IMG/VR virus record: IMGVR_UViG_3300049737_000165
Location: 1-26,617 of that record
DNA: 26,617 nucleotides
Origin: a virus
Strand: one strand, 5' to 3'
The translations under genes were made by a program, and so were the position numbers. The notes beneath the pieces were generated by a model that was not told the DNA's origin, did not search any database, and saw only the letters and a list, made by a program, of their open reading frames with translations. Below, piece after piece: positions 1 through 11,205 of the stretch; positions within the stretch are counted from its first letter, which is position 1, and every line of letters starts with the position of its first letter.

Positions 1-163
1 ACCATGAAGTAGCAACTAATTTACCTATTTCTAATGCACTACCCATAGCAATAATTGGTACAACTGCACCAGCGAATAAAGTGGATAAACCTACAATAGA
101 ATAGCCAGCGGCTATTACAGATATAGAAATCGCACTTAAAAATGTTATTATAATTGTCAACAT
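1..163 (-). CDS. Membrane protein, partial (5' end of gene only)
   Basis: The first 54 codons of a gene that runs off the left edge. The start ATG at 161-163 has an AGGA ribosome site that overlaps the stop codon of the upstream lysin gene. The visible peptide is almost wholly hydrophobic: a segment at residues 1-24, a short break, then a second at about 26-45 with the pattern PIIAMGSALEIGK. This resembles the N-terminus of a multi-pass membrane protein common in tailed phages, with two helices followed by a soluble part, but I cannot see the rest. Function unknown. Its place after the peptidoglycan hydrolase makes a lysis or envelope role possible, but nothing in the sequence proves it. Confidence 0.7.
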   Translation of the reverse strand, partial: MLTIIITFLSAISISVIAAGYSIVGLSTLFAGAVVPIIAMGSALEIGKLVATSW

Positions 164-170
164 ATAAATC

Positions 171-821
171 CTAATTTATTTTTGGTATATCGTAATCTTC
201 TCTTAACTTCTTAATAATACTTCTTAACTTCGGAAAGTATTTTTTATCAGCTGCATATGCACCAAGTGTTTCAACATATTGTAAAGAATCTTCTATACCG
301 TTATCTCTTAATTCTCTGTACTTTTCATAAGCACTACCATTATTTATGATATTAATATAATGTTGTACAGAATCACATTCATGCATATAAACTCTAACAC
401 CCCATTTTTTAGGATTATTACTAGGCAACATATGTGGTTCTCGTAGGTCATATGTACGAACACCAAATAAGTTTTTACCTTCTAAAGCAAATCTACTATT
501 ACCCCAACCACTTTCTAAAGCCGCCTGTGCTAATAGTATTTCAAGATTTACAGGATATATGTCTGTTGTTGTATTGTAAATATAGTTTACACAAGCGCCA
601 ACACTATTGATAAATGTTTGATTGTTTTCTCTTTCAAAATCTGGCCTAGTGTATGTGGTAATTTTTTCTAAGGTTTCCACCACTTCTTCTATTTGAAGTT
701 CTTGTTTTGCGTGGAGCGCCTCATCTTTTTCTGCTGATACGGTGTACCAGATACCAAAAACAAACAAGATGACCGTTACAGCCATCAATGTTTGAAGTAT
801 TGTTTTTATTTTTGCAAGCAT
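171..821 (-). CDS. Bax-like / GH73 glucosaminidase (probable phage lysin)
   Basis: A 216-residue peptidoglycan hydrolase of the Bax/FlgJ-C glucosaminidase (GH73) family, which cuts the N-acetylglucosaminyl linkage of murein. An N-terminal membrane segment spans about residues 8-28. A linker follows, then the catalytic domain with LLAQAALESGWGNSRFA at 96-112, where Glu103 is the expected acid, and GKNLFG at 115-120, a classic mark of the family. The uncleaved hydrophobic N-terminus suggests a membrane-tethered or signal-anchor-release lysin acting in the periplasm. Its start follows the upstream stop by two bases' gap, with a weak AAGAG site. Neighbours are small membrane or unknown proteins. 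Lysis is inferred from family and context; a role in entry or virion assembly is the alternative. Confidence 0.85.
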   Translation of the reverse strand: MLAKIKTILQTLMAVTVILFVFGIWYTVSAEKDEALHAKQELQIEEVVETLEKITTYTRPDFERENNQTFINSVGACVNYIYNTTTDIYPVNLEILLAQAALESGWGNSRFALEGKNLFGVRTYDLREPHMLPSNNPKKWGVRVYMHECDSVQHYINIINNGSAYEKYRELRDNGIEDSLQYVETLGAYAADKKYFPKLRSIIKKLREDYDIPKIN

Positions 822-822
822 G

Positions 823-1149
823 TTAGGCTCTTTTGATTATTATATAATCGTAACTTGATATAGATTCTGGTTCATTTTCACCATACTCTGACCAAGTACC
901 TATCTCTATGTCTTTGTTCTTCTTTTGAAAGAATTGCAAATCAGGCCTATCAATGTATTTTGACATGTTTTTAAATATCTTTTCAGATTGTTTTTCTGTA
1001 AAATTATTTGCAACATCTGTTGACCAATTGCCTGTGTAATAGGTCATTTTGTTTTCACAACCACTAATGAAGTGGTCTAGTTTTTTAGGGACGCCACTTA
1101 TTACCGATTTAAGGTAGTGGTCCAGTTCTTTTGATTTAGTTTGTGCCAT
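823..1149 (-). CDS. Conserved-looking phage protein, unknown function
   Basis: A 108-residue soluble protein I do not recognise. The start is well supported by AAGGAG eight to nine bases upstream. The N-terminal half is basic and helical in character; the C-terminal half has the run DRPDLQFFQKKN and ends in a strand-like YDYIIIKRA. There is no signal peptide and no membrane segment. It lies between another unknown ORF and the Bax-like lysin in a tight run, so it is probably cotranscribed with both. A TATAAATG sequence, close to a T4 late promoter, sits at 1167-1174 just ahead of its ribosome site and might add late expression. Confidence 0.8.
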   Translation of the reverse strand: MAQTKSKELDHYLKSVISGVPKKLDHFISGCENKMTYYTGNWSTDVANNFTEKQSEKIFKNMSKYIDRPDLQFFQKKNKDIEIGTWSEYGENEPESISSYDYIIIKRA

Positions 1150-1169
1150 AATATAGTTCTCCTTCTCAT

Positions 1170-1469
1170 TTATAAACCTTTGATTAAAAATTTCTGAATT
1201 ACATTCTTAGTTGGTATAACGGTAGTATTACCACCATCTGACAACTCATTATGTTCATCATAATTATAATCACTCATCATCACATGTACATCTTTGTCTT
1301 GTTTTACAAGCCAACCAGTAGATACACAAATAGCCGGTTTGCTTTTCTGTATCTCTTTTAATGTACGCCAGCCAGAATCACTCTGTATATCCTCCCAATA
1401 TACCATATAGAAATCGAATTCAAATGGTATGCCTGGTAGCACATCTGACTTTGCTCTTTTTTTAGCCAC
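1170..1469 (-). CDS. Hypothetical protein, unknown function
   Basis: A 99-residue protein with a basic N-terminus (AKKRAKSD) followed by a compact domain rich in Trp and Tyr: FDFYMVYWEDI at about 18-28, STGWLVK at about 50-56, then an acidic loop and a C-terminal IPTKNVIQKFLIKGL. The layout suggests a small beta-rich fold, but I cannot name a family. It overlaps the end of the upstream exported-protein gene by eight bases, so translation is probably coupled. There are no cysteine pairs, membrane helices or known catalytic motifs. Confidence 0.75.
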   Translation of the reverse strand: MAKKRAKSDVLPGIPFEFDFYMVYWEDIQSDSGWRTLKEIQKSKPAICVSTGWLVKQDKDVHVMMSDYNYDEHNELSDGGNTTVIPTKNVIQKFLIKGL

Positions 1470-1761
1470 TTATTTCTTTCTTGTAAGTTTCATCTGCTTT
1501 CATTCTTAACTCAGCAGCTATGCTTTCTAAAATAGATGGTAAATGTTTTTCAATAACATCTGTCATCTCTAAAGAAAACTTATATGCTAGTTTAGTCATC
1601 TCTGCCTCTAATACCGACATATCTACACCGTTACCAGAAACATTTTCTTTTATAACATGTGCTAAAACAGCTGTGTTATAATCGTCTGCTTTTGCAATAT
1701 TTGAAAGACCAAACCATAACATGGCATTCAAAACTACAACAAACATAACAAACTTTTTCAT
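1462..1761 (-). CDS. Small exported (signal-peptide) protein
   Basis: I place the start at the ATG ending at 1761, because AGAAAGGA lies just upstream and the product then opens with a textbook signal peptide: MKK, a hydrophobic core (residues 4-20) and an AKA|DD cleavage site after residue 25. A longer open frame to 1824 would read through the promoter and is rejected. The mature part (about 74 residues) is helical and charged, with a likely amphipathic stretch from residue 35 on, and ends in a basic tail. It is the first gene after the promoter at 1792-1820, so it should be made strongly and early. Periplasmic location is predicted; function unknown. Confidence 0.8.
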   Translation of the reverse strand: MKKFVMFVVVLNAMLWFGLSNIAKADDYNTAVLAHVIKENVSGNGVDMSVLEAEMTKLAYKFSLEMTDVIEKHLPSILESIAAELRMKADETYKKEISG

Positions 1762-1778
1762 AATATATCCTTTCTCAT

Positions 1779-1785
1779 TATTTAT
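1779..1785 (-). promoter_or_regulatory. T4-late-like ATAAATA element
   Basis: CATAAATA occurs on the minus strand between the sigma70-type promoter and the ribosome site of the exported-protein gene. T4 late promoters use TATAAATA, read by gp55. Similar elements occur at 1167-1174, 2443-2449, 24271-24277 and 26393-26399. In an AT-rich genome chance matches are common, so this is only a candidate. Confidence 0.25.
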
Positions 1786-1791
1786 GGATAC

Positions 1792-1820
1792 ATTATACAC
1801 TAATTGGACCATAGAGTCAA
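1792..1820 (-). promoter_or_regulatory. Strong sigma70-type promoter
   Basis: On the minus strand TTGACT (1815-1820) is followed after exactly 17 bases by TATAAT (1792-1797), a near-perfect vegetative promoter. Transcription should begin near 1785, leaving a leader of about 24 bases that carries AGAAAGGA before the ATG at 1761. It should drive the exported protein and the genes running to the left edge, including the lysin. Four similar promoters occur at 4792, 7145, 8708 and 23619. Confidence 0.85.
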
Positions 1821-1824
1821 GCAC

Positions 1825-1861
1825 TTTTTTGCTTATTTTTGCGTTTTTTTATGTTTTTTTT
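1825..1861 (-). promoter_or_regulatory. Phased A-tracts upstream of the promoter (UP element / bend)
   Basis: Four A-tracts on the minus strand (1825-1830, 1836-1840, 1844-1850, 1854-1861) have right-hand ends 10, 10 and 11 bases apart, in phase with the helix. They sit directly behind the -35 box. Such tracts are known to bend DNA and to bind the RNA polymerase alpha subunit. A TGTCGCAGC motif follows at 1866-1874. The same layout recurs at 8739-8798. Confidence 0.7.
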
Positions 1862-1883
1862 GATGGCTGCGACAGTTTTGTCA

Positions 1884-2405
1884 CTACTCCGGTCGTACAA
1901 ATTTGTCATTCCAACCAAATGCCTCTTTGACAACTGATTCGGTAAGACCTTTATACATTTTATTCAACGATTTGTTCTTCATACCAAGTAAGACCTTTGC
2001 CTCGTCTTGATGAAGACCCTCTAACATTTGAATAAACATTTTTTCTTTTTGTACTTTGTTAGTAGCATTATCAGCGCCTTTTACGAAATGCCATAGTCTT
2101 TTAGATTCGTTTCTTAATAGACCATGTTCAGTTCCTATCGGAGCTTCGTTTGCCATGAATGGAGGGTCACCTGCTGGTAAATCCCATGCAATATTAGGGT
2201 CAAAAGCACCTTTCAATACTTGTTTAAGAGGCGCTGTTGCGTGTTCTTTTAATACTTGAATTTTTTTAGGTTTATCTTTTGCGTTATTGACTTTTTTTAG
2301 AATTTCAGACATTAATTCTACTGTCTGACCCATACCAGATGTGCCTTGATTTGTTTTCATAGCAGCTGGATTCATTAAATGTGGGTGTCTTGCTTGTTCG
2401 GCCAT
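1884..2405 (-). CDS. Conserved T4-like phage protein (DUF6433-like)
   Basis: A 173-residue protein with a textbook AAGGAG ribosome site. The central block reads NNAKDKPKKIQVLKEH, then GAFDPNIAWDLPAGDPPF at about 67-84, then a helical C-terminal half with LLGMKNKSLNKMYKGLT. I recognise this layout as a family of unknown function carried by marine T4-like phages, annotated from memory as DUF6433; the number should be verified. No catalytic motif is apparent. The KPKKIxVL and LPxGxPPF blocks suggest a conserved binding role. It is the last gene before the phased A-tract promoter region. The upstream ATAAATA (2443-2449) may give late expression. Confidence 0.85.
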   Translation of the reverse strand: MAEQARHPHLMNPAAMKTNQGTSGMGQTVELMSEILKKVNNAKDKPKKIQVLKEHATAPLKQVLKGAFDPNIAWDLPAGDPPFMANEAPIGTEHGLLRNESKRLWHFVKGADNATNKVQKEKMFIQMLEGLHQDEAKVLLGMKNKSLNKMYKGLTESVVKEAFGWNDKFVRPE

Positions 2406-2441
2406 AATTTCTCCTTCAGTTTGAATATATATTCGATAATA

Positions 2442-2651
2442 TTATTTATCCATAAAATTTCGTTTAGAATACCAATCATAAAATGCCTTGTCCGTAAACA
2501 ATTCTGCTATCTCGTTTGCTGGTACTTGGTCTGATTTTATACATGTTTCTAATGATTCATACTCGTAGGTATCTACCTTTCGAGTCATTTTTCTATCTTT
2601 GTTAGACTCTGCCAATGTTCTAACTAACCTTTCTTGTTTAACAATTGTCAT
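2442..2651 (-). CDS. Hypothetical small protein
   Basis: A 69-residue soluble protein. The first ATG of the frame is at 2669, but the one at 2651 has AAAGGA at good spacing, so I use it; the upstream bases belong to the small membrane ORF. The sequence is charged and helical, with the basic stretch NKDRKMTRK and a C-terminal aromatic cluster FYDWYSKRNF. No family recognised. It overlaps the preceding 40-residue membrane-protein gene by 14 bases. Confidence 0.7.
   Translation of the reverse strand: MTIVKQERLVRTLAESNKDRKMTRKVDTYEYESLETCIKSDQVPANEIAELFTDKAFYDWYSKRNFMDK
2443..2449 (-). promoter_or_regulatory. T4-late-like ATAAATA element
   Basis: GATAAATA overlaps the stop codon of the 2442-2651 gene and lies about 40 bases before the start of the DUF6433-like gene, a workable distance for a late promoter. 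Sequence match only. Confidence 0.3.
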
Positions 2652-2760
2652 CTGGTGGTCCTTTATCATTATTGTCTTTATAGTTACTATCTAAATTTGT
2701 TAGTAAAAACCATAATACTATAATTGATACGGGTACACCAATAAAAAATAATCCTGTCAT
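2638..2760 (-). CDS. Tiny single-pass membrane protein (40 aa)
   Basis: A 40-residue frame that fills the gap between two genes exactly. Its ATG overlaps the upstream stop as TAATG, and its stop lies inside the next gene. Residues 3-20 form one hydrophobic helix (GLFFIGVPVSIIVLWFLL), followed by a polar acidic tail ending in DDNC. The ribosome site is weak (AGAAAG), so reinitiation after the upstream gene is likely. Small one-helix proteins of this kind are common in phage early and lysis regions. Function unknown. Confidence 0.6.
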   Translation of the reverse strand: MTGLFFIGVPVSIIVLWFLLTNLDSNYKDNNDKGPPDDNC

Positions 2761-2975
2761 TAAAACTTTCTAACAATATGTCTTCTTAATGCTCTAGTTA
2801 ATTCTTCCATTTTATCTATAATAGCAATTAAACTAGGGTCTGTAATATAATTTGTTTGTTCTTTTAATTTATCGTATTCTTTTAATGTTATCTGCACCAT
2901 TGGTGATAGGTCTCTACTACCCTCATTTTCCATGGTGGCGTCTAAGCCTCTTTGTTTCTCTTCGCTGTCTGTCAT
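2760..2975 (-). CDS. Hypothetical small protein
   Basis: A 71-residue protein with an AAAGG ribosome site. The N-terminus is acidic and probably disordered. The C-terminal half is helical and ends in a basic cluster (RALRRHIVRKF), with PSLIAIIDKMEEL before it, consistent with a short coiled-coil or dimerising helix. No family recognised. It follows the terminator hairpin at 3004-3026, so it may need its own promoter or readthrough. Confidence 0.7.
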   Translation of the reverse strand: MTDSEEKQRGLDATMENEGSRDLSPMVQITLKEYDKLKEQTNYITDPSLIAIIDKMEELTRALRRHIVRKF

Positions 2976-3000
2976 AAAAACCTTTGGTTAACCTAAATGA

Positions 3001-3026
3001 AAACGGAGGACCTGGGGCCCTCCGTC
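3001..3026 (-). terminator. Rho-independent terminator
   Basis: A perfect seven-base stem, ACGGAGG/CCTCCGT (3004-3010 and 3020-3026) with a nine-base GC-rich loop, is followed on the minus strand by TTTTCATTT. It lies 14 bases after the stop of the winged-helix-like gene. The GC-rich stem stands out in this AT-rich window. Confidence 0.75.
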
Positions 3027-3039
3027 TCCTGATTTTAAA

Positions 3040-3303
3040 TTATGCTGAGTAAGCGACTTGCTTACCAAACACAGCAGTAATACCAGCAGCTATAATAGCT
3101 TTTGATGGTGTTCCTACTCTGTAAGAAACGCCTTTAGAACCACGATTTTCATAAATCATCATTCCTTCGTTTCTAAGTTTACCAACCATTGCAGCTGGTG
3201 ACCTTAGGTCATATGTAGTTCTTAGTTGTTTCCAAGATACATCTGAACCTTTTGCAAAAAGATTTCTCACTTTTGCTGTTTTTGATAGTTTAGCTTTTGC
3301 CAT
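3040..3303 (-). CDS. Small winged-helix-like phage protein
   Basis: An 87-residue basic protein. The start at 3303 has AAAGGAG at ideal spacing. A second in-frame ATG at 3342 also has a ribosome site (AGAAAGGA) and would add 13 residues (MFNFLKTLKGDKV). The pattern is a helix (TAKVRNLFAKG), a second helix with WKQLRTTYDL, a third with PAAMVGKLRNEG and a beta-wing (MIYENRGSKGVSYRVG), the order of a small winged-helix DNA-binding domain. Similar short proteins are widespread in marine T4-like phages, with the C-terminal PSKAIIAAG block. It lies between an operator-like palindrome and its own terminator, so it may be a separately controlled single-gene unit. DNA binding and self-regulation are inference. 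Confidence 0.8.
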   Translation of the reverse strand: MAKAKLSKTAKVRNLFAKGSDVSWKQLRTTYDLRSPAAMVGKLRNEGMMIYENRGSKGVSYRVGTPSKAIIAAGITAVFGKQVAYSA

Positions 3304-3333
3304 AACTTTATCTCCTTTTAGGGTTTTTAAAAA

Positions 3334-3373
3334 ATTAAACATATGTTTAATGTCCTTTCTGTGAGTTTAATGT
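3334..3373 (-). promoter_or_regulatory. 18-bp perfect palindrome plus direct repeat (operator-like)
   Basis: The bases 3334-3351 form a perfect palindrome, ATTAAACATATGTTTAAT. The half-site ACATTAAAC (minus strand) recurs at 3365-3373, exactly 20 bases from the copy at 3345-3353, about two helix turns. The palindrome contains the alternative ATG at 3342. On the minus strand it is followed by six Ts, so it could also fold as a terminator or attenuator. A TTGCCT box lies upstream but has no good -10, so I do not call a promoter. Confidence 0.5.
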
Positions 3374-3425
3374 ACTCCTACAATTGCCAGGCAAAGCGTA
3401 CTTTAGTAGTTTGACCGGCGAATTC

Positions 3426-3905
3426 TTATTTGTCATTATCTGGTTCAAAATCAGGTGTAAAATGTACATCTGCCATGTCAGATAAATCTCTAACTTCATC
3501 CTCAATATCTTTTGAAAATGGTTTATGTGGTCTGTGTTTAATATCTAACAACTTACTATAATCTAATCTAGCAGATTTGTTTTTACCACTTGTGTTTAAT
3601 GTAACCATTTTATCTGTTAGTGTTTGAGCAGGATGTTTTTTGTTAAAATCACGGTAAACCAGTCCTCTGATTGTATCAATTACAAGTGCCAAGTCAGCCG
3701 TAAATGTCATTTGATTTGTTCTAATACCCATAGCTACAAACTTATCTAATAATTGATATGCGATATCGTCAACATTTCCTTCTACAAATTCTTTCGTCTG
3801 TTGTTCAACTAAACGATTGTGTTCCTTTGGGTCAACAGGATGTTGGACTTTTTCTTTGTCTTTAATTCTGTCTGTGGGAAATAGAATAATATTATCGTCA
3901 CTCAA
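3426..3905 (-). CDS. Conserved phage protein, unknown function
   Basis: A 159-residue acidic soluble protein that begins with a TTG codon seven bases after a strong AAAGGAGAG site; no ATG is available at that place. It overlaps the end of the glutaredoxin gene by eight bases. The middle block VDDIAYQLLDKFVAMGI and TADLALVIDTIRGLVYRDF is helical and resembles a family found in marine T4-like phages next to replication and redox genes. The tail is very acidic (DFEPDNDK). There are no catalytic motifs or membrane segments. Confidence 0.8.
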   Translation of the reverse strand: MSDDNIILFPTDRIKDKEKVQHPVDPKEHNRLVEQQTKEFVEGNVDDIAYQLLDKFVAMGIRTNQMTFTADLALVIDTIRGLVYRDFNKKHPAQTLTDKMVTLNTSGKNKSARLDYSKLLDIKHRPHKPFSKDIEDEVRDLSDMADVHFTPDFEPDNDK

Positions 3906-4167
3906 TTATCTCTCCTTTAAAGTTTACTTTACCTTTTTCATTAAAGTGTTCTACAAGTTGATTATAACCACCAATTAAATTTCCATCAATCTTAATCTGT
4001 GGCATTTGCCTCACATTCTTACCAATGTCTTCAATTAGTTTACTAGGGTCGGAATCAAAGTCTTTTTCTAAAGATTTTTCTTCGTATTCAAGGCCAAGAT
4101 TTTTTAGCAATGTTTTGGCCTTGTTACAATAAACACAATTGTTTTTACTATAAACTGTTATTGTCAT
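3898..4167 (-). CDS. Glutaredoxin
   Basis: An 89-residue glutaredoxin. The redox centre CVYC is at residues 11-14 after the first beta strand (ITVYSKNN). The cis-proline is Pro56 in RQMPQI, where most family members have TVP, and the glutathione-binding GG pair is at 66-67. It would pass electrons from glutathione to substrates in the cytoplasm, most obviously to the phage NrdA. T4 carries a comparable NrdC. Its start lies inside the end of the LPP20-like lipoprotein gene and its end overlaps the next gene, so it belongs to the unit driven by the promoter at 4792-4820. Identification is secure; the missing Thr before Met-Pro is a mild variation. Confidence 0.93.
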   Translation of the reverse strand: MTITVYSKNNCVYCNKAKTLLKNLGLEYEEKSLEKDFDSDPSKLIEDIGKNVRQMPQIKIDGNLIGGYNQLVEHFNEKGKVNFKGEIIE

Positions 4168-4774
4168 CTTTATTCTTTAGGTTGTCCCATGCCTTTTTAC
4201 TTTCATCATTTAGATTGTAAGCGTCAACAGCTTGTTCAATAGTGTAGTTATACATCTTATTAAACTTACCTAGAGGCAATCTCATACCTATCCATGTTCT
4301 ATAATAACCATTTTTAGTCATAGTTACATCTTGTGCAAATATCTCATAACCTCTTACAGGTGTATCAGTTATTTTATTTACAATAGCACTTTCAACTTCG
4401 GTCACTACAGTTTTTGTTTCAGTTTTACCAAGTTCTTTGATGAATTGTTTTGATTCTTTATTCATCTCACCCTTGATTATATCTGCCAATTCAGATTTAG
4501 CCATCATTTTAGCTTTCTCTATTGACAATTGTAAATCAGGAGAAACAGCTGTTGCAACACCATAGATACATTGCTTATCATTATCTTCACTTGTTAACCA
4601 TGAAGTATCACAAGCTTTTGATTCATTGATATCTGCCATGTACCACGCTGGTACTTTATCAACAGTATTACCTTTCTCTGATTTAATCTTATAGGTACTA
4701 TTCATACTAGAACAGGCACTTAGACCTACAATAGCTACAAGAGCACCTAATTTCATCATTTTATTTTTCATCAT
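4148..4774 (-). CDS. LPP20-like lipoprotein
   Basis: A 208-residue predicted lipoprotein. The signal peptide is short and basic (MMKNKMMK) and runs to a lipobox VGLSAC, with Cys21 the lipidated residue. The mature part carries YGVATAVSPDL, then the helical AKMMAKSELADIIKGEM, then GYYRTWIGMRLPLGKF, the order expected of the LPP20 family of outer-membrane lipoproteins. Four further cysteines may form disulfides. It starts about 11 bases after the predicted transcription start of the promoter at 4792-4820. It is the first of a group with glutaredoxin. Phage-encoded outer-membrane lipoproteins often block superinfection; that role is inferred here. Confidence 0.75.
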   Translation of the reverse strand: MMKNKMMKLGALVAIVGLSACSSMNSTYKIKSEKGNTVDKVPAWYMADINESKACDTSWLTSEDNDKQCIYGVATAVSPDLQLSIEKAKMMAKSELADIIKGEMNKESKQFIKELGKTETKTVVTEVESAIVNKITDTPVRGYEIFAQDVTMTKNGYYRTWIGMRLPLGKFNKMYNYTIEQAVDAYNLNDESKKAWDNLKNKDDNNSL

Positions 4775-4911
4775 ATTTTACTTTCCCTTACATTATATAC
4801 TAACTCTTGTATAAAGTCAAGCGTGGATTGAACATATGTCCAGGCATCCTCACTAGATACATCATACAGTATCACTAACACAAGAGCAACAATAATTAGA
4901 TATCTAATCAT
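4771..4911 (-). CDS. Small single-pass membrane protein (46 aa)
   Basis: A 46-residue frame with a strong GGGAGGTG ribosome site. Its ATG overlaps the stop of the upstream exported protein (TAATG), and its stop overlaps the ATG of the LPP20-like gene (ATGA). Residues 4-16 (YLIIVALVLVILY) form a membrane helix; the rest is an amphipathic, mildly acidic helix. The perfect junctions on both sides are the main support. The second half of the gene also contains the promoter for the lipoprotein downstream. Function unknown. Confidence 0.7.
   Translation of the reverse strand: MIRYLIIVALVLVILYDVSSEDAWTYVQSTLDFIQELVYNVRESKI
4792..4820 (-). promoter_or_regulatory. Strong sigma70-type promoter inside a small gene
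   Basis: On the minus strand TTGACT (4815-4820), 17 bases, TATAAT (4792-4797). The start site should be near 4785, about 11 bases before the ATG of the LPP20-like gene, with AAGGGAAAG in the short leader. It lies within the coding sequence of the 46-residue membrane protein. Confidence 0.8.
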
Positions 4912-5303
4912 TATTTCACCTCCCATTCACCATTTACATCTAAACAAACTTTTCCTGGTGATTTAAAAGCATGTTTATCCCGACTATAATATCGGCAATA
5001 TTCAGGTGTATTCACATCATGGTAATAAAATTGTGCAAATAAGTCCCAATAACCTGGGGTGTCAATGCCTCTCTTACCGTCAGCACACTCTAAAATTTCT
5101 CTTTTTGTAATAGTATCGCCTTTTTGTACTATTTCAATTTTTACAAAACAATATTGACCATCAGTTTTTTCTGGTGATATAGATTTAATTTTACTATGCA
5201 ATACTTGTTCACCTGCAACTGCAACTCCTGTTATGATTAAAAATATAATCATTATAAAAGTCCATGTTAAGTATCGTCTTTGATTATTCCAGGGGTCAAA
5301 CAT
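4911..5303 (-). CDS. Exported or membrane-anchored protein, unknown
   Basis: A 130-residue protein. A hydrophobic segment (residues 12-30) ends in GVAVAGE, so either signal peptidase cuts after residue 30 or the segment stays as an anchor. The rest is a compact extracytoplasmic domain with four cysteines, QYCFVKIEI, LECADG, EYCRYYSRD and VCLDVNGEWEV, suggesting two disulfides. The ten residues before the helix include Arg-Arg, fitting an N-in orientation. No family recognised. It belongs to the envelope-directed block started by the promoter at 7145-7173. Confidence 0.75.
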   Translation of the reverse strand: MFDPWNNQRRYLTWTFIMIIFLIITGVAVAGEQVLHSKIKSISPEKTDGQYCFVKIEIVQKGDTITKREILECADGKRGIDTPGYWDLFAQFYYHDVNTPEYCRYYSRDKHAFKSPGKVCLDVNGEWEVK

Positions 5304-5463
5304 ATTTTCTCAATTCTTCTATACTTTGTTTTGTATTATATATCTCTTCTTCAAGATTGTCAATGGTGGATTGCTTATTAGTAATTTCAATCTCCTCTTG
5401 CTTTTCTTTGACTTCGTTCTCTAATTGTTCTATTCTGTCATTATATCTATTTTGATATGTCAT
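5296..5463 (-). CDS. Small coiled-coil protein
   Basis: A 55-residue protein. The frame is open further upstream, but those codons lie inside the 17 kDa-type lipoprotein gene; the ATG at 5463 overlaps that gene's stop as ATGA and gives the natural start. Almost the whole product is a charged heptad-like helix (RIEQLENEVKEKQEEIEI and on), so it is probably a cytoplasmic dimer or trimer. There is no signal or membrane segment. It ends eight bases into the next gene. Function unknown. Confidence 0.65.
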   Translation of the reverse strand: MTYQNRYNDRIEQLENEVKEKQEEIEITNKQSTIDNLEEEIYNTKQSIEELRKYV

Positions 5464-5945
5464 GGTTTTTCTATCCATTGTCCGTCTGGTAATTGACAAG
5501 CAGTACCAAATACTACCTCTCTCTTGACGCCTCCGATACCAATTAATGGCCAACTACTAGTAATATCTACTGTTGCGTCATAATCTTTACACTTAATAGG
5601 TCCTTGTGTATATGACCTTGTAACATGAATAATACCTGAATTACCTGTTTGACTATTGTACCAATTTGTATAACTAGAACCTGAACCACTTGTGTTTAAA
5701 TGGTCTACAAATACAGCATTGTGTACATCATAATCTGATTTATACATTAATTCAGCACCTGCAAATCCTCCTAGTAAAGCACATGCACCAGTAACATAGG
5801 GGTCTGAAACACCTAATGATACACAACCTGCAACAGCTGAACCTGCACCGGCACCAGCACCAATATGTGTTCTATTAATCGAACTGCAATTGGTCAGGAA
5901 CACCAATGATAGTCCTAATAATAGTACCGATTGGATTGACTTCAT
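5460..5945 (-). CDS. 17 kDa surface-antigen-type lipoprotein
   Basis: A predicted outer-membrane lipoprotein of about 161 residues. The ATG at 5945 has AAGAAGG at good spacing; an ATG at 5960 overlaps the previous stop and is the alternative. The signal peptide ends in the lipobox FLTNC (Cys20). A glycine zipper follows (GAGAGAGSAVAG, then GGFAGAE). The C-terminal domain has CKDYDATVDI and FGTACQLPDGQWIEKP, matching the Cys and GTACRxPDGxW pattern of the rickettsial 17 kDa antigen family. That family is typical of Alphaproteobacteria, so this gene is the clearest host-derived item in the window. A role in changing the cell surface or excluding other phages is inferred. Confidence 0.82.
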   Translation of the reverse strand: MKSIQSVLLLGLSLVFLTNCSSINRTHIGAGAGAGSAVAGCVSLGVSDPYVTGACALLGGFAGAELMYKSDYDVHNAVFVDHLNTSGSGSSYTNWYNSQTGNSGIIHVTRSYTQGPIKCKDYDATVDITSSWPLIGIGGVKREVVFGTACQLPDGQWIEKP

Positions 5946-6042
5946 ATTTACCTTCTTCATTTTTTTTGATTGATGAACACGCTGTCATGGTTGAGACCAC
6001 TATAATCGCCATAATCACCACTCTTATCTTTTTCTTTATCAT
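5875..6042 (-). CDS. Small lipoprotein overlapping both neighbours
   Basis: A 55-residue frame with a lipoprotein signal: MIKKKIR, a hydrophobic run, and the lipobox TMTAC with Cys22. The mature peptide is short (about 34 residues) and ends IIGVPDQLQFD, with NPIGTIIR before it. It overlaps the end of the 5957-6220 gene by 86 bases and the start of the 17 kDa-type gene by 71, each in another frame. No start has a clear ribosome site; a GTG at 6057 and an ATG at 6012 are the alternatives. The exact signal-plus-lipobox layout is unlikely by chance, so I think it is real. An o-spanin (Rz1-like) role is possible but unproven. Confidence 0.5.
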   Translation of the reverse strand: MIKKKIRVVIMAIIVVSTMTACSSIKKNEEGKYEVNPIGTIIRTIIGVPDQLQFD

Positions 6043-6220
6043 AATTAGATTTATCACTTGCTACCAAAAGGCAATCTGCCTGTATGGTTTCAATTAAATT
6101 TTGTATTCTAAAATCTCTATCAGGCGACTTAGGAAAACTATACTTTGTTGTCCTAAGGTCATCTGACATCTTCTTAATAGAATCTATCTTATCGCAAAAA
6201 TCACTAATCTTGTGTAACAT
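5957..6220 (-). CDS. Hypothetical soluble protein
   Basis: An 87-residue charged protein. It begins inside the end of the exported-protein gene (17-base overlap) and ends with an ATGA junction to the next gene. The N-terminal half is helical (ISDFCDKIDSIKKMSDDL); the C-terminal part is rich in Asp, Lys, Ser and Gly and probably disordered, partly because a second lipoprotein frame uses the same bases. There is no signal or membrane segment and no recognised family. The ribosome site is poor, so translational coupling is likely. Confidence 0.6.
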   Translation of the reverse strand: MLHKISDFCDKIDSIKKMSDDLRTTKYSFPKSPDRDFRIQNLIETIQADCLLVASDKSNYDKEKDKSGDYGDYSGLNHDSVFINQKK

Positions 6221-6431
6221 TCTGTTTGACTTTCGTAAATAGATTTACAATTGTTTCTTTAGTCTTAGCATTCTGCTCTTTTGCTGATTGCCAACTTTTC
6301 TTTTGAAACTCAATTGTTTTTGTTTTCTCTGCATTAAACCAATCTAAGATTGGATTTGCTTTTGCAACGCCTGTGATTAACAAAAATGCTAATGCACCGA
6401 TTGTAATTGCTATAGTTTCCTTTAGCTTCAT
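6204..6431 (-). CDS. Small periplasmic helical protein
   Basis: A 75-residue protein with a signal peptide (MKLKETIA, hydrophobic core to residue 22, AKA|NP cleavage after residue 25) and a GGGAGAA ribosome site. The mature 50 residues form a lysine-rich amphipathic helix (EKTKTIEFQKKSWQSAKEQN). If the N-terminus is not cut, it would be an inner-membrane protein with a periplasmic coiled coil, as in i-spanins. Its start overlaps the preceding stop as ATGA. Function unknown. Confidence 0.7.
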   Translation of the reverse strand: MKLKETIAITIGALAFLLITGVAKANPILDWFNAEKTKTIEFQKKSWQSAKEQNAKTKETIVNLFTKVKQNVTQD

Positions 6432-6814
6432 ACTTTTCTCCCTGCTGTTTTTAGGTCACTTTTATTTACCACCATATAAGGACCTTTGTTATATGCCGGC
6501 ACGATAGTAAAGTTTTTACTTTCTTCTATCTTCCAAGAATTGTCTGGTTTTGTACCACCATTACCAATAGTATTTGACATTGGTACATCTGATAATGTTG
6601 TTTCTCTTTCATATGGCATTGTTCTCTCTGCAATATTAATTGAGTGTCTACCATCAATTGTCAACTTAATTCTACCATTATCATCACAATCAAATCCCAT
6701 AGACTTTAAATATTTGATATGTTTAGCAAGTGCTTCTAGGTAACCTTTCGTAGGTTTTTTCTTCTTTGCTCTACGAATAGCACCACTAGATTGATTTGTG
6801 TAGATAATCGCCAT
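6428..6814 (-). CDS. Hypothetical protein, unknown function
   Basis: A 128-residue soluble protein. A basic N-terminus (IRRAKKKKPTKG) is followed by a helix (YLEALAKHIKYLKSMGF) and a beta-rich middle with GRIKLTIDGRHSINIAERT, then a flexible Gly/Asn section and GPYMVVNKSDLK. The basic start may bind nucleic acid. It is linked by a TAATG junction to the gene before it and ATGA to the one after. I do not recognise a family. Confidence 0.75.
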   Translation of the reverse strand: MAIIYTNQSSGAIRRAKKKKPTKGYLEALAKHIKYLKSMGFDCDDNGRIKLTIDGRHSINIAERTMPYERETTLSDVPMSNTIGNGGTKPDNSWKIEESKNFTIVPAYNKGPYMVVNKSDLKTAGRKV

Positions 6815-7113
6815 TAATTCACACTCTTGTTTTCAGGTGTTTCTGCGTCTGACATTGCTTTTACTTCAGCATATGTCTTACCAAAACCAACTTTGTAAAA
6901 TGCGTCAACTGGATTATCTGACGAATAAGCCGCCAATAGATTTGAAAAGTTGATATCAACACCCTCGTAATATTGAGGTTTATTGTTTCTCAACTCAATG
7001 TGGTCTTTACAAAACTGAATACGATTGTCATACTTCTCGTACTTGCCTTTTGTATCTTTACTTTTTGCAACATCAAACTCTGCATAAAGTGTTTCTTTTG
7101 AATAAAATGCCAT
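6814..7113 (-). CDS. Hypothetical early protein
   Basis: A 99-residue soluble protein, first in the unit after the promoter at 7145-7173. The ATG at 7113 has AGAAAGGA and a leader almost identical to the one at 1761; an upstream ATG at 7131 has no site. The sequence is aromatic and charged (MAFYSKETLYAEFDVAK, NNKPQYYEGVDINFSNLLAAY) with an acidic C-terminus. No motif recognised. Its strong promoter and leader suggest abundant early expression, so a host-takeover role is possible. Confidence 0.75.
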   Translation of the reverse strand: MAFYSKETLYAEFDVAKSKDTKGKYEKYDNRIQFCKDHIELRNNKPQYYEGVDINFSNLLAAYSSDNPVDAFYKVGFGKTYAEVKAMSDAETPENKSVN

Positions 7114-7144
7114 AATATAATCCTTTCTCAATTAATTATTCACT

Positions 7145-7173
7145 ACTATACCATAACCGTCTGGAAATGGCAA
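7145..7173 (-). promoter_or_regulatory. Sigma70-type promoter
   Basis: On the minus strand TTGCCA (7168-7173), 17 bases, TATAGT (7145-7150). The leader is about 25 bases and contains AGAAAGGA. Behind it, 7174-7261 holds no gene: T-runs, a GC-rich stretch with a repeated TCCTGGCG, and a weak ACGAA/TTCGT hairpin, perhaps the end of the preceding unit. Confidence 0.75.
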
Positions 7174-7261
7174 GCCTAGAAAAAAGCGTGTATTTACTCA
7201 CTTTTCTCAGGAAAAAAGTCGCCAGGATGCGCCAGGAGAGGCGAAACGAAGCTTTCGTGTA

Positions 7262-7450
7262 CTACCGTACCCCCTCTGGAAGTATATCCTTCTTACTTTC
7301 TTCTTCAGCCCACTTCTCAAATTCTTTAACTTTTTTATCGTTATGGGCTATACTTACATCACAAGCTTTGATGGCGTCTTGTGTCATACCATCAATAACT
7401 AACTTACGAATCTTTTTTACATCATCAATGTGGTTCAGGACTTCAATCAT
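7262..7450 (-). CDS. Hypothetical small protein
   Basis: A 62-residue helical, charged protein. Its ATG overlaps the stop of the DUF3310-like gene as ATGA. The pattern DVKKIRKLVIDGMTQDAIKACDVSIAHNDKKVKEFEKWAEEE looks like two or three helices, reminiscent of TPR-like or small regulatory helical proteins, but the sequence is too short to assign. It is the last gene of its unit. Confidence 0.7.
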   Translation of the reverse strand: MIEVLNHIDDVKKIRKLVIDGMTQDAIKACDVSIAHNDKKVKEFEKWAEEESKKDILPEGVR

Positions 7451-7716
7451 TTTTTTTCTCCTTGGTCCTCTGAATTCATTAATAGTACAATATAGTGTAC
7501 TGCTTTAAGTAGGTCTTTTCTATTCCTACCATCTTTTTTACCAAACCTACACAAATATTTAATTGCATTTGCCTGACAGAAATCTTTATCTATACCTATA
7601 TCTCTTAATAGGTCTTGCACTTGTGTGCCTTTACTCACTTGAGCATAATGTTGACCATAAGTACCTTTTATATATGTACCTATTTCTTGTAGTATTTTAT
7701 CTTCGTTATATTTCAT
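7447..7716 (-). CDS. DUF3310-family phage protein
   Basis: An 89-residue protein whose C-terminal half, FCQANAIKYLCRFGKKDGRNRKDLLKAVHYI without a break (residues 46-76), matches the DUF3310 pattern (helix with N-x-x-KYLxRxxxKxG, then a DLxKAxxYL helix). The family is found across phages and is sometimes labelled a nucleotide-kinase-like protein; its role is not settled. The N-terminal half here is longer than the minimal domain and includes GTYGQHYAQ. The ribosome site is weak. Confidence 0.7.
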   Translation of the reverse strand: MKYNEDKILQEIGTYIKGTYGQHYAQVSKGTQVQDLLRDIGIDKDFCQANAIKYLCRFGKKDGRNRKDLLKAVHYIVLLMNSEDQGEKK

Positions 7717-7718
7717 AA

Positions 7719-7976
7719 TTAACTATCTATCCAATCTGTTGCTGATTCTTCTTGTTCCGCTTTTTCTACTACTTTATCTATCTGACTAAAATAACACCAG
7801 TTACTACCAAATGTAATTGCACCAGTATAATCTAGTTCAGTATCATAAGTCTTAGCATTTAAACTTGAATCTAGTTCAGCAGCTATATCTGTTTTCTCGG
7901 TAGCAATACCGATATTTGTTATAACACCCTCTCTACCTTTAGTGTCTTGAATTGTATCTCCAACATTTATTATCAT
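7719..7976 (-). CDS. Hypothetical protein, small beta-barrel-like
   Basis: An 85-residue acidic protein with GGGAGG before the start. The opening VGDTIQDTKGREGVITNIG resembles a KOW/SH3-like beta barrel, and YTGAITFGSNWCYFSQIDKV continues as strands. The tail is acidic. No known family assigned. It overlaps the preceding gene by four bases. Confidence 0.7.
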   Translation of the reverse strand: MIINVGDTIQDTKGREGVITNIGIATEKTDIAAELDSSLNAKTYDTELDYTGAITFGSNWCYFSQIDKVVEKAEQEESATDWIDS

Positions 7977-8347
7977 ATTATTCCTCCCATAAATTTAGTG
8001 ACTTCCGTATTAAAGTCATGTTTAAAAAATTGTCTTGTATTATACTTTTGACCGTAATCTGTATAAAAAGATTTATCATCACAATCAAATTCATCTGCAT
8101 AAGTTTTATAATACTCTTCGCCAGAAATTATATTTACCTCTGAGTAGTTATCATAGTTACTAGCAGATTCATTATAGTTCTTATCACAAAACTCTTTAAC
8201 TTTTTGTTTAAAGTTCTTATCATTTAGTCTTGTCAATTGTGACAATGGTACATTTCTGAATATCGTATAATTGATGAAGAAATAATCATGGTCTTCATCA
8301 TCATAGTATTGTCTTTGATAGACTAAATGTATCGTACTTTCTTTCAT
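7973..8347 (-). CDS. Hypothetical acidic protein
   Basis: A 124-residue soluble protein, strongly acidic and rich in Tyr, Asp, Asn and Phe (YQRQYYDDEDHDYFFINYT; NYDNYSEVN; EFDCDDKSFYTDYG). Its composition recalls phage DNA-mimic or early inhibitor proteins, but no known family is evident. The start overlaps the preceding stop as TAATG; the ribosome site is poor, so coupling is likely. Confidence 0.7.
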   Translation of the reverse strand: MKESTIHLVYQRQYYDDEDHDYFFINYTIFRNVPLSQLTRLNDKNFKQKVKEFCDKNYNESASNYDNYSEVNIISGEEYYKTYADEFDCDDKSFYTDYGQKYNTRQFFKHDFNTEVTKFMGGII

Positions 8348-8541
8348 TAAGCGGACTCTAGCTCCATATCAATTACTTCGTCAATATTGTTTTCATCAAT
8401 ACCAACTAATTCAAGATTATCAAGAACCATAATCTTTGCTTTAGCAGCTTCTTTGCTGATTGCATTGTTTGTAAGTTCTAGTAAGATAGCGTCAACAGCT
8501 TTCTCAGCTAAATCCCAATAATAGTTTTTTACTTTACTCAT
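8347..8541 (-). CDS. Hypothetical small acidic helical protein
   Basis: A 64-residue protein with an AAGGAG ribosome site. Two helices are evident, YYWDLAEKAVDAILLELTNN and AKAKIMVLDNLELVG, followed by an acidic tail (IDENNIDEVIDMELE). Short proteins of this type occur in marine T4-like phages; function unknown. It follows the 54-residue ORF at the head of the unit driven by the promoter at 8708-8735. Confidence 0.7.
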   Translation of the reverse strand: MSKVKNYYWDLAEKAVDAILLELTNNAISKEAAKAKIMVLDNLELVGIDENNIDEVIDMELESA

Positions 8542-8698
8542 AGTGTGTTTCTCCTTGTTTAGTGTTATTAATTATATTCATTACTTCAAAAAGTGATTTA
8601 TATGGATTACTATACAACACTTTTTTAGCAAAGGCAACCCTTTTTTCAAGTCTTTTTAGTTGTATTTGCATTTTCTTTTTGTTATATTCTTTAATCAT
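8534..8698 (-). CDS. Small basic helical ORF at the head of the unit
   Basis: A 54-residue frame that connects the promoter to the next gene. The start ATG at 8698 lies only about three bases after the predicted transcription start, so the message would be almost leaderless; an inner ATG at residue 10 is the alternative. The N-terminal half is very basic (KEYNKKKMQIQLKRLEKR), then VAFAKKVLYSNPYKSLFEVM. Its stop falls inside the start of the next gene. No family recognised. Confidence 0.5.
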   Translation of the reverse strand: MIKEYNKKKMQIQLKRLEKRVAFAKKVLYSNPYKSLFEVMNIINNTKQGETHYE

Positions 8699-8707
8699 TA
8701 TGTGTCC

Positions 8708-8735
8708 ATTATACAGGTTTCCACATAGAAAGCAA
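8708..8735 (-). promoter_or_regulatory. Sigma70-type promoter
   Basis: On the minus strand TTGCTT (8730-8735), 16 bases, TATAAT (8708-8713). The predicted start near 8701 is about three bases before the ATG at 8698. It should drive the 8698-7262 gene group. Confidence 0.75.
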
Positions 8736-8738
8736 GCG

Positions 8739-8798
8739 TTTTTTTGCTTTTTTTTAAAGTTTTTTTTGAGACCAGGTAAGGGTTTTAGAGCTGCGACA
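8739..8798 (-). promoter_or_regulatory. Phased A-tracts and TGTCGCAGC motif behind the promoter
   Basis: Three A-tracts on the minus strand (8739-8745, 8748-8755, 8760-8767) have right-hand ends 10 and 12 bases apart. Further upstream, TGTCGCAGC (8790-8798) repeats the motif at 1866-1874. The arrangement is the same as at 1825-1874. Confidence 0.6.
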
Positions 8799-8809
8799 CA
8801 AAATACTTG

Positions 8810-9490
8810 TTATTTCCAAGCATTTTTTATCCATTCCATGTCAGATTCGTGAGGATTTGGTCTTCCGTGAAACACGGTTACCAACGATTCGCCATTATGT
8901 TCATATGTCCAGTTTTGTTTAGAGTATCTAGTACCGCTTCGGTCATACCACTTATATGATTGTGTCCACGAATCTGGAAACGAATCACATCCAGGAGTAT
9001 TCTTAATTAAGGCTGATATTAGGTTTTGGTCACCTGGATACTGTCTAAGGTATTCTGGTCTATTGGACATAAATTTATGCCAAATTCGGCCGTGAAGGTC
9101 CTGCTGTTTAAATCTCATAATACTGGAGTTCCAAACACCACTTACGGGGTTAAAGTCATTCATACCACAAAAATCTAGTTGTGGTTCGTGACTATAGAAA
9201 CAGTCTATATTACTTGTAATTACAACATCTAAATCCATGTATAAGGTAACGCCTGGTAGATATGTGTCTGGATGAAATAACTGTAGTTTATTCCACCAGC
9301 CTTGTAAATCAGTTTCTTTAAACTGTCTAATATCAATATCTCCCTCTACCATCTTATGCATTTTAACATGGTCGGTAAATACTACAAAATTTATAGGAAG
9401 TGTGGTGTTTCTTCTTACCATATTGTAAAGTTTTTGAACATACTCTACAGGATACTTGTCACCATAACAAACGCAAGCAAAATTGTACAT
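8810..9490 (-). CDS. GT-A-type glycosyltransferase (DxD)
   Basis: A 226-residue glycosyltransferase-like protein. I start at 9490, where AGGAAT precedes an ATG that overlaps the upstream stop; the longer frame would run through the membrane-protein gene. The product opens MYNFACVCYGDKY, then LPINFVVFTD, GWWNKLQLF and LYMDLDVVI, where Asp86-Leu-Asp88 is the metal-binding DxD of GT-A enzymes. The later block GDQNLISALI is also typical of this group of phage and bacterial GT8-like proteins. It would transfer a sugar from a nucleotide-sugar donor in the cytoplasm. It is the last gene of the glycan cassette. Donor and acceptor cannot be told. Confidence 0.8.
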   Translation of the reverse strand: MYNFACVCYGDKYPVEYVQKLYNMVRRNTTLPINFVVFTDHVKMHKMVEGDIDIRQFKETDLQGWWNKLQLFHPDTYLPGVTLYMDLDVVITSNIDCFYSHEPQLDFCGMNDFNPVSGVWNSSIMRFKQQDLHGRIWHKFMSNRPEYLRQYPGDQNLISALIKNTPGCDSFPDSWTQSYKWYDRSGTRYSKQNWTYEHNGESLVTVFHGRPNPHESDMEWIKNAWK

Positions 9491-9738
9491 TATATTCCTA
9501 ACCAATTGAATACTGCTCTTAAACTTAATAACATATACATTAATTCCATAATCATTCTTGGCCAATCTTTATCTTTATAACCAAACCACACCCACATAAT
9601 ACAAGCACTTACACTCAAAGACCAACCTACCCATTGGGTTGAAACATTTGCACTTGATAAGATTGCTACACTAGTAACAGCAAGTATTAAACCAAACCAT
9701 CTAAATTTGTTCTTGAAGAACCTCGAAGGCGATACCAT
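9490..9738 (-). CDS. Small membrane protein, three helices
   Basis: An 82-residue hydrophobic protein. The ATG at 9738 has AAGGAG seven bases upstream; a TTG two codons earlier is too close to that site. Three membrane helices are likely at about 14-31, 37-54 and 63-80, with WFGYKDKDWPRM in the second loop. It overlaps the end of the preceding GT-B-like gene by 38 bases. It could be a small transporter, flippase partner or anchor for the cassette, but no family is clear. Confidence 0.7.
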   Translation of the reverse strand: MVSPSRFFKNKFRWFGLILAVTSVAILSSANVSTQWVGWSLSVSACIMWVWFGYKDKDWPRMIMELMYMLLSLRAVFNWLGI

Positions 9739-10486
9739 CTTCAATCTCCTTTATTGTAAATTGATTATAAGATAACATTCTCATCCATCTATTTATTTTA
9801 TCACCATCAGGTTTAAAAGGATAATTTAATGTCTTGTAACTTATATCTCTACTACTAACACCAGCAGCTACATTTCTATTATGTGTTATACATGGTACGC
9901 CATTGACTGTTGCGTCAACAGCCGTTAATGACATGTTAGTAACTAAACAATGAGCGTCTTTTAAGTCATCTAATATATCTGTATTCCACCATTTGTTATT
10001 TGGTCTTGGTTTATTTCTTAATTTTATCGGTCTATCTGTACATTTTTTTATTTCATCTGTAGTTTCTTTTATCCAATCATCTTGTGTCATATCATTTATA
10101 TAATATGTTACAGTAGGAGATGAAGGACAAACTAATATATGCTCACCTGATTGCCAACCTTTAAATTCTGTATTTAATCTCTTATCATCATGTTCTTTAA
10201 ATGATGTGGTGTGAATACCACCTTTACATATTCTAAAATATGTTTTATCGTAATTGTTTATAATTGGTTCAGGATATCTTGTAATTTGTTCAGTTATATA
10301 ACCGTTATCTACATACCACCATTCTAATCCCCAATCTATACATTGTTTGATTGTTGATATATTTTTACCTGCTAATCCCCAAAAAAAGTGTACATCTTTT
10401 CCGTTATCTTTCCAACCTTTTTTTATGGCTGGCATAAGTTGATGTGATAAACATTTGTCCCACGGTAAAGTATGTGTATGAATCAT
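9701..10486 (-). CDS. GT-B-like surface-glycan protein, paralog 1
   Basis: A 261-residue protein, one of three related proteins here (with 12547-13428 and 16930-17832). Shared elements are GEHILVCPSS, a block with CTDRPIKLRNKPRP, then DILDDLKDAHCLVTNMSLTA followed by VNGVPCITH, and a C-terminal QFTIKEIEDGIAF. This order, a nucleotide-sugar-site-like helix (S/T-rich) followed by a small G-x-P loop, resembles the C-terminal half of GT-B or capsule-export (KpsC/S-like) enzymes. Its start overlaps the previous gene as ATGA. A glycan role is inferred from fold pattern and neighbours; the precise reaction is unknown. Confidence 0.6.
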   Translation of the reverse strand: MIHTHTLPWDKCLSHQLMPAIKKGWKDNGKDVHFFWGLAGKNISTIKQCIDWGLEWWYVDNGYITEQITRYPEPIINNYDKTYFRICKGGIHTTSFKEHDDKRLNTEFKGWQSGEHILVCPSSPTVTYYINDMTQDDWIKETTDEIKKCTDRPIKLRNKPRPNNKWWNTDILDDLKDAHCLVTNMSLTAVDATVNGVPCITHNRNVAAGVSSRDISYKTLNYPFKPDGDKINRWMRMLSYNQFTIKEIEDGIAFEVLQEQI

Positions 10487-11205
10487 CTACTATCTACCAA
10501 ACTTTTATTAACTTTAATTACATTCTTTAATATTTCACTATCAATAAAGTTTGTAAATGCCTCCATGTCTTTAGGAAAACAATTACCATCATAACCTAAT
10601 TCTTTTACTCTCATGTGACTAGGACCTATATTCTCAAAGTCTGCCAATGTATTAATAATAGAATGATAGTTATATGATTTATCTAATTTACTATACAATT
10701 CATGGAAGAAAGTAACCTTTGTAGCTAACCAACAGTTGTACACATATTTAATTACACTTGCGTCCTTCTTTTTTAAAATAATATTTGTTTTGTGATGGCA
10801 TTTAAATCTTTCAATCCACCAATCTGCTTCACTTCTTAAACCACCCCATAATATGTGTTCATTGTTTTTAAAATCTTTTTCAGCATGTGCTTCTCTAAGA
10901 AATTCGGGAGAATAAACTACATTCTCCTCATAGACAGTTAACATGTTTGGTAAAATGGTAGATTTTATTAAAGTTCTTACATCTCTCAATGCAATAACTG
11001 TTTTATCTATTACTGTTAAATCTTGTTCACCATTTATAGTAGGTGTTGGTAAACAAATAACAGCACCATCAATCTTGTCAACAAAATGTTCTAGTTTATT
11101 GTCGTTGTATTTTGGGTCTATTCTTACTACATCATTTTGAGCATTTTCTAATGCGTTTGCAATTGTATTTCCAACATACCCACAACCTATTACTGCTAAT
11201 TTCAT
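10483..11205 (-). CDS. UDP-glucose/GDP-mannose dehydrogenase family, short form
   Basis: A 240-residue member of the UDP-glucose/GDP-mannose 6-dehydrogenase family, which oxidises a nucleotide sugar twice to the uronic acid using NAD. The NAD motif GCGYVG is at 7-12, CLPTPT at 51-56, KSTILP at 81-86, SPEFLREAHA at 99-108, the helix with KYVYNCWLATKVTFFHEL at 153-170 and the catalytic-cysteine loop GYDGNCFPKD at 204-213 (Cys209). The usual family length is about 390-450; the C-terminal UDP-binding domain is absent. All catalytic landmarks remain, so it may work as a minimal enzyme or with another subunit. It would supply an acidic sugar to the cassette. Confidence 0.85.
   Translation of the reverse strand: MKLAVIGCGYVGNTIANALENAQNDVVRIDPKYNDNKLEHFVDKIDGAVICLPTPTINGEQDLTVIDKTVIALRDVRTLIKSTILPNMLTVYEENVVYSPEFLREAHAEKDFKNNEHILWGGLRSEADWWIERFKCHHKTNIILKKKDASVIKYVYNCWLATKVTFFHELYSKLDKSYNYHSIINTLADFENIGPSHMRVKELGYDGNCFPKDMEAFTNFIDSEILKNVIKVNKSLVDSR

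Follow-up and report, generated by a model that had tools for sequence, protein, structure and literature searches.

Two places on the minus strand of a 26,617-nucleotide viral DNA stretch, the window of this analysis, combine near-consensus -35 and -10 hexamers with a row of A-runs and, further upstream, a copy of the box TGTCGCAGC. This layout raises the question of whether the A-runs and the box are working parts of the promoters, and which host machinery they would serve.

The ribonucleotide reductase alpha protein of the window shows 92.1% identity to its counterpart in Pelagibacter phage Mosig EXVC030M, and window positions 1-10488 align to Mosig 115962-126529 with 80.4% identity, 61% of the 12-kb query being covered. 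Together these comparisons place the window within the genome of a T4-like phage of the Kyanoviridae, a pelagiphage with Mosig EXVC030M as its nearest relative, and we infer SAR11 as the host. The substantial genes of the window lie without exception on the minus strand. They include a phage-encoded CHASE2 and adenylate/guanylate cyclase protein (24518-26389, minus); an annotated cyclase is also present in HTVC008M, a more distant pelagimyophage.

Anatomy of the two sites

Both sites have the design that a first-pass annotation of this DNA had described (Table 1). Site 1 (1874-1792, minus) consists of the box, four A-runs and TTGACT-17-TATAAT, and the identical box recurs at site 2 (8798-8708, minus) ahead of three A-runs and TTGCTT-16-TATAAT, where an alternative -35, CTTGCT, lies one base upstream and gives a spacer of 17 bp. 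The A-runs end 3-4 nt upstream of the -35; counted with the first T of TTGACT as -35, those of site 1 end near -39, -50, -58 and -68. The proposed regular spacing of 10-11 bases between A-tract ends holds as a mean of about 10 but not strictly, since we observed spacings of 10, 8 and 11 at site 1 and of 12 and 9 at site 2. Under a strict 9-12 rule, site 2 passes and site 1 fails.

Table 1. Features of the two sites, and candidate SOS-box-like sequences in SAR11 and in related phages
Feature	Position	Strand	Remarks
Box TGTCGCAGC, site 1	1866..1874	minus	exact match; about -89 to -81
Four phased A-runs, site 1 (8, 7, 5, 6 A)	1825..1861	minus	runs at 1861-1854, 1850-1844, 1840-1836, 1830-1825
-35 hexamer TTGACT, site 1	1815..1820	minus	17-bp spacer
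-10 hexamer TATAAT, site 1	1792..1797	minus	
First gene of site-1 operon, 99 aa	1462..1761	minus	hydrophobic N-terminus; preceded by GAGAAAGGA
Box TGTCGCAGC, site 2	8790..8798	minus	exact match; about -97 to -89
ACCTGGTCTC, right half of palindrome TTGAGACCWGGTCTCAA	8768..8777	minus	palindrome complete in some relatives
Three phased A-runs, site 2 (8, 8, 7 A)	8739..8767	minus	runs at 8767-8760, 8755-8748, 8745-8739
-35 hexamer TTGCTT, site 2	8730..8735	minus	16-bp spacer
-10 hexamer TATAAT, site 2	8708..8713	minus	
54-aa ORF, near-leaderless	8534..8698	minus	start about 10 nt past -10 of site 2
64-aa gene after the 54-aa ORF	8347-8541	minus	
Candidate SAR11 SOS-box loci	L381-L386, L393, L397, L400, L404, L406, L407, L387-L391		
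Host-matrix match in Mosig, SOS-box-like	117857-117873		
Host-matrix matches in HTVC008M, SOS-box-like	30099-30115, 87258-87274, 133405-133421, 134996-135012		

The first gene behind site 1 matched no Pfam or PHROG family. A glucosaminidase/endolysin-like gene is part of the same operon, so that its early timing is not assured. A near-identical leader, (T/A)TGAGAAAGGAT(T)ATATTATG, is found at two different promoters of the window (7173-7111 and 1797-1759, minus) and occurs in Mosig too. At site 2, many relatives keep a small ORF like the 54-aa one, with a second promoter inside. The palindrome (TT)GAGACCWGGTCTC(AA) adjoins the A-runs on their upstream side in the site-2 relatives L070, L082, L086, L102, L108, L109 and others, and is half-decayed in the window (8777-8768). 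The palindrome was rejected as the motif of a host regulon: GAGACCWGGTCTC with one mismatch was found in none of seven SAR11 genomes, and its backwards-read control gave 8 strand hits.

Conservation, phasing and predicted bending of the A-runs

With a genomic G+C of about 33%, the A-runs might be merely AT-rich intergenic sequence or products of slippage. Against this, a 40-bp stretch holding four A-runs of length five or more is found once in the window, at site 1, where 300 dinucleotide shuffles lead one to expect 0.007; a search for three of these runs inside 32 bp has 3 overlapping matches, all at sites 1 and 2 (0.42 expected, shuffle maximum 3).

The relatives were gathered solely through homology of the downstream genes (51 loci and the best 80 of 131, plus Mosig). 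Among the 127 usable upstream sequences, a promoter was found by rule in 118 and none in 9, leading to 63 distinct promoters; L060 (20-aa match) and L064, L067, L120, L122 and L124 (start too near the gene) were left out of this set. At least two A4 runs are present in 57 of the 63 and at least three in 36, and the orthologues L023, L090 and L132 have T-runs or are devoid of A-runs. At a period of 10.5 bp, the best of 12 tried, the mean resultant of the A-run ends over the 63 promoters, which as orthologues are not independent, is 0.906 vs 0.585 in the null (z 9.7). The 21 representatives below 70% identity gave 0.896 vs 0.577, with 0 of 2000 permutations as high. These comparisons support conservation of a helically phased A-tract element among the relatives, and a 10.5-bp peak that survives sequence turnover is at odds with mere AT-richness or slippage, an explanation that we consider very improbable.

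In a wedge model, site 1 ranks first in the 26.6-kb window for predicted bends of both 45 and 60 bp, site 2 stands at percentile 99.2-99.3 of the window, and the Mosig orthologue of site 1 at percentile 100.0 of its 46-kb locus. The suggestion that the A-tracts form a built-in bend or UP element thus gains support from phasing kept despite turnover, from the top predicted bend and from A-rich DNA abutting near-consensus -35 and -10 hexamers.

The Mosig orthologues at both loci retain the A-runs together with AAAAAAGTGCTTG. Two of the five [GC]CTTG-type promoters found in the window have at least two A4 runs; A-run promoters are therefore a subclass and not the whole. Across 12 whole phage records, the composite AAAA-AAAA-GCTTG[AC] has two matches in Mosig, namely the orthologues of sites 1 and 2, and a single one in HTVC019P; the other 10 records, among them HTVC008M, T4 and four cyanophages, have none. 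Such A-run arrays are almost absent from HTVC008M.

The upstream box and LexA-type repeats in its slot

The first-pass annotation had listed the box as part of the promoter design, but the box is not fixed to the promoter. Mosig has TGACGCAGC at the box position of site 2, whereas at its site 1 the box is missing and AGAACAAAAATAGAACA stands there instead. The window contains three exact copies of TGTCGCAGC, the third of which (24686-24694, plus) is inside the cyclase gene, away from any promoter. We therefore rejected the box as a fixed promoter element; a distinct site upstream of the core promoter describes it better.

From box to -35 the distance measures 45 at site 1, and 16 site-2 orthologues have 53-54 or 64-65. 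These steps of about 10 bp mean that the box stays on one helical face, a constancy that a few indel events could explain. Counted upstream of the -35, the box is centred at about 50, 58-59 and 69-70 bp and the LexA-like boxes of relatives at about 49, 59 and 70 bp, the comparison being post hoc. The box is probably a protein site, since many relatives carry a different, LexA-type direct repeat in the slot. A regulator plausibly binds in the slot, which spans about -85 to -105; in E. coli, activators that touch alpha work at similar distances. As a host regulon motif the box was rejected, TGTCGCAGCC having no exact match in seven SAR11 genomes.

The box could instead be the right arm of a stem-loop that ends the preceding operon, as a terminator or 3'-end element, and is unrelated to the promoter. 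In the distant relatives L027, L030 and L132, and at HTVC008M 133406, strong stem-loops include the box or the complementary sequence, at least five box bases are paired in 21 of 33 segments, and the box follows the upstream stop codon by 10-22 nt in the 16 site-2 orthologues. However, folding is better than z -1.5 in only 12 of the 33 segments, the box is unpaired in L061, whose sequence here is identical to window site 2, a U-run after the box is absent, and the distances from box to -35 change in steps of roughly 10 bp. On balance we regard the stem-loop as less likely than not.

In many relatives the slot is occupied by AGAACAAAANNAGAACA, a repeat of the same format as the sites before SAR11 lexA, umuDC and a presumed nrdJ. 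Among the 63 distinct promoters, GAAC-N7-GAAC is present in 26, a TGTCGCA-type box in 31 and both in one. Neither window site has GAAC-N7-GAAC near its promoter, the sole copy in the window falling in a coding sequence at 5430. On the host side, LexA is encoded in six of the seven SAR11 genomes searched, with AGAACTTTTATAGAACA just upstream of lexA at 6/6 lexA loci; AGAACAAAACAAGAACA precedes a two-gene operon read as umuDC in 4/7 genomes, and a GAAC repeat lies beside an nrdJ-like gene in two, umuDC and nrdJ having been named by eye from the protein sequences. At all five full recA loci we found GAACAAAATGTGTACA. AGAAC-N7-GAACA is a candidate SAR11 SOS box before lexA, umuDC and the nrdJ-like gene, with a variant at recA.

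A matrix built from the SAR11 host boxes only (lexA, umuDC, nrdJ-like and recA) gave 5 matches in Mosig, HTVC008M and the window combined, each of them at an operon boundary ahead of a promoter, while 50 matrices with permuted columns had a mean of 0.18 matches and a maximum of 2. Matches to the looser pattern AGAAC-N7-GAACA number 7 in the two SAR11 T4-like records (6 at operon boundaries, 1 in coding sequence) and 6 in T4 and four cyanophage records, all within long ORFs. HTVC011P has one, between genes: this intergenic AGAACAACTATAGAACA (3346-3362, minus), which lies some 1 kb away from the podophage's integrase gene, suggests SOS-linked control there. In three phage sets, the raw count of GAAC-N7-GAAC, 13, does not stand out from those of other spacings (3, 11, 6, 14, 7 and 9 for N4, 5, 6, 8, 9 and 10), and among the matches listed in a motif scan of viral contigs, 121 were classed, many of them inside ORFs. 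In the orthologous slots, N7 spacing is found in 10/27 and 16/40, N4 in 1 and other spacings in 0. Support for the repeat comes therefore from the host-only matrix, the orthologous slots and location, not from raw counts. The repeat is found facing either way with respect to genes, and HTVC008M has it between divergent genes, which weakens a role as a transcript 3'-end signal.

The whole design might then be a regulator-controlled module, in which host LexA (in many relatives) or another factor on TGTCGCAGC would dock upstream, the bent A-tract would set its geometry to the polymerase, and phage genes would answer the state of the host. The near-exclusive distribution of the two boxes over the 63 promoters and the operon-boundary matches of the host-only matrix speak for such modules, as do the distances from the LexA-like box to the -35, which in 31 representatives fall mostly near 41 and 62 (Rayleigh p ~0.002 at 10.5 bp and 0.0009 at 10 bp; 9 periods tried). 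The absence of the repeat from both window sites speaks against them, and so does the host umuD box, which lies just past the -10 whereas the phage position is distal. The distances may moreover stem from a few indel events of one repeat unit, and HTVC008M and Mosig have both elements at some sites, so that the two are not strictly exclusive. We hold regulator-controlled modules to be a serious possibility, if one on the lesser side of even odds. A fuller version, in which pelagimyophage promoters would combine regulator site, phased A-tract bend and sigma-70 core, many lineages would employ host LexA as the regulator and T4-like SAR11 phages would thereby read the SOS state, and TGTCGCAGC would here have taken the place of the LexA site and be bound by a different factor, perhaps encoded by the phage, seems to us doubtful. 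The LexA-type sites in relatives are the strongest lead to come out of this work.

Proposed function and comparison with known promoters

The reading that we prefer, with a probability of roughly 70%, is that both sites are sigma-70 promoters of the SAR11 polymerase, with a bent, UP-like A-array that raises their strength and a separate box upstream. Its starting points, namely anatomy, conservation, phasing and slot, were observed directly. The host RNA polymerase would recognise the -35 and -10 hexamers at both sites, and the phased array, 30-40 bp long, would bend the upstream DNA in vivo. Its A-runs would present minor-groove sites to the C-terminal domains of the alpha subunits in the manner of an UP element, and this contact would make the promoter stronger; as the first-pass annotation suggested, it may let phage promoters win host polymerase. 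We infer the alpha contact by analogy with T4 early promoters and UP elements. TGTCGCAGC would keep to its slot on one helical face, with its centre 50-70 bp ahead of the -35; a protein on the box and early timing of the operons would be in line with the same model.

The A-tract promoter design is real and conserved among the relatives, and it offers a testable promoter model for the phages that infect the ocean's most abundant bacteria. According to PMC7029224, a published attempt to define pelagimyophage middle and late promoters failed, and the early ones came from a generic predictor only. In the open-access papers searched we found no account of pelagimyophage promoters with phased A-tracts or with LexA-type sites. 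SAR11 SOS genes are described as rising during infection by pelagiphage HTVC027P (PMC12753301). Should the relatives' LexA-type sites prove to be bound, they would link T4-like phages to the DNA-damage response of the host.

Several known systems share parts of this design. As in curved promoters with phased A-tracts, the A-runs recur at a 10.5-bp period upstream of the -35. The proximal subsite of E. coli UP elements has the consensus AAAAAARNR, which AAAAAAGTG beside the window -35 resembles; unlike UP elements, with one or two subsites, the window sites have three or four phased A-runs, and the host is an alphaproteobacterium.

Precedents for host-regulator sites on phages include LexA, Spo0A and CtrA, as outlined in PMC9437464. 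Like phages regulated by LexA (e.g., GIL01) or CtrA, the relatives bear host-regulator-type sites at their promoters. GIL01 is temperate, whereas we deal here with T4-like pelagiphages, a distal site and a window itself devoid of the LexA-like site.

The T4 middle (MotA) consensus is given as TGCTTtA 11-13 bp from TATAAT (PMC1524935); site 1 has TTGACT, and site 2 has TGCTTTC 14 bp from TATAAT. T4 early promoters are laid out as UP/-35/TGn/-10 (PMC2988021). PMC2988021 and PMC1524935 describe near-consensus host sigma-70 elements, which the window sites share as TTGACT-17-TATAAT and TTGCTT-16-TATAAT, and UP-like DNA rich in A around -40; in T4-like phages the bases from -40 to -44 are reported to be often A-rich (PMC1524935). 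The -35 region differs, being CTTGAC/CTTGCT within GCTTGACT and GCTTGCTT vs GTTTAC in T4 (PMC1524935). The extended -10 TGn is absent, with GTG/CTG directly before TATAAT and the TG one base out of register. Unlike that of T4 early promoters, the A-array is longer, helically phased to about -68, and accompanied by an additional upstream box. The T4 -35 and TGn features fail here, and on the best reading the pelagiphage sites would function in the manner of T4 early promoters while departing from the T4 consensus.
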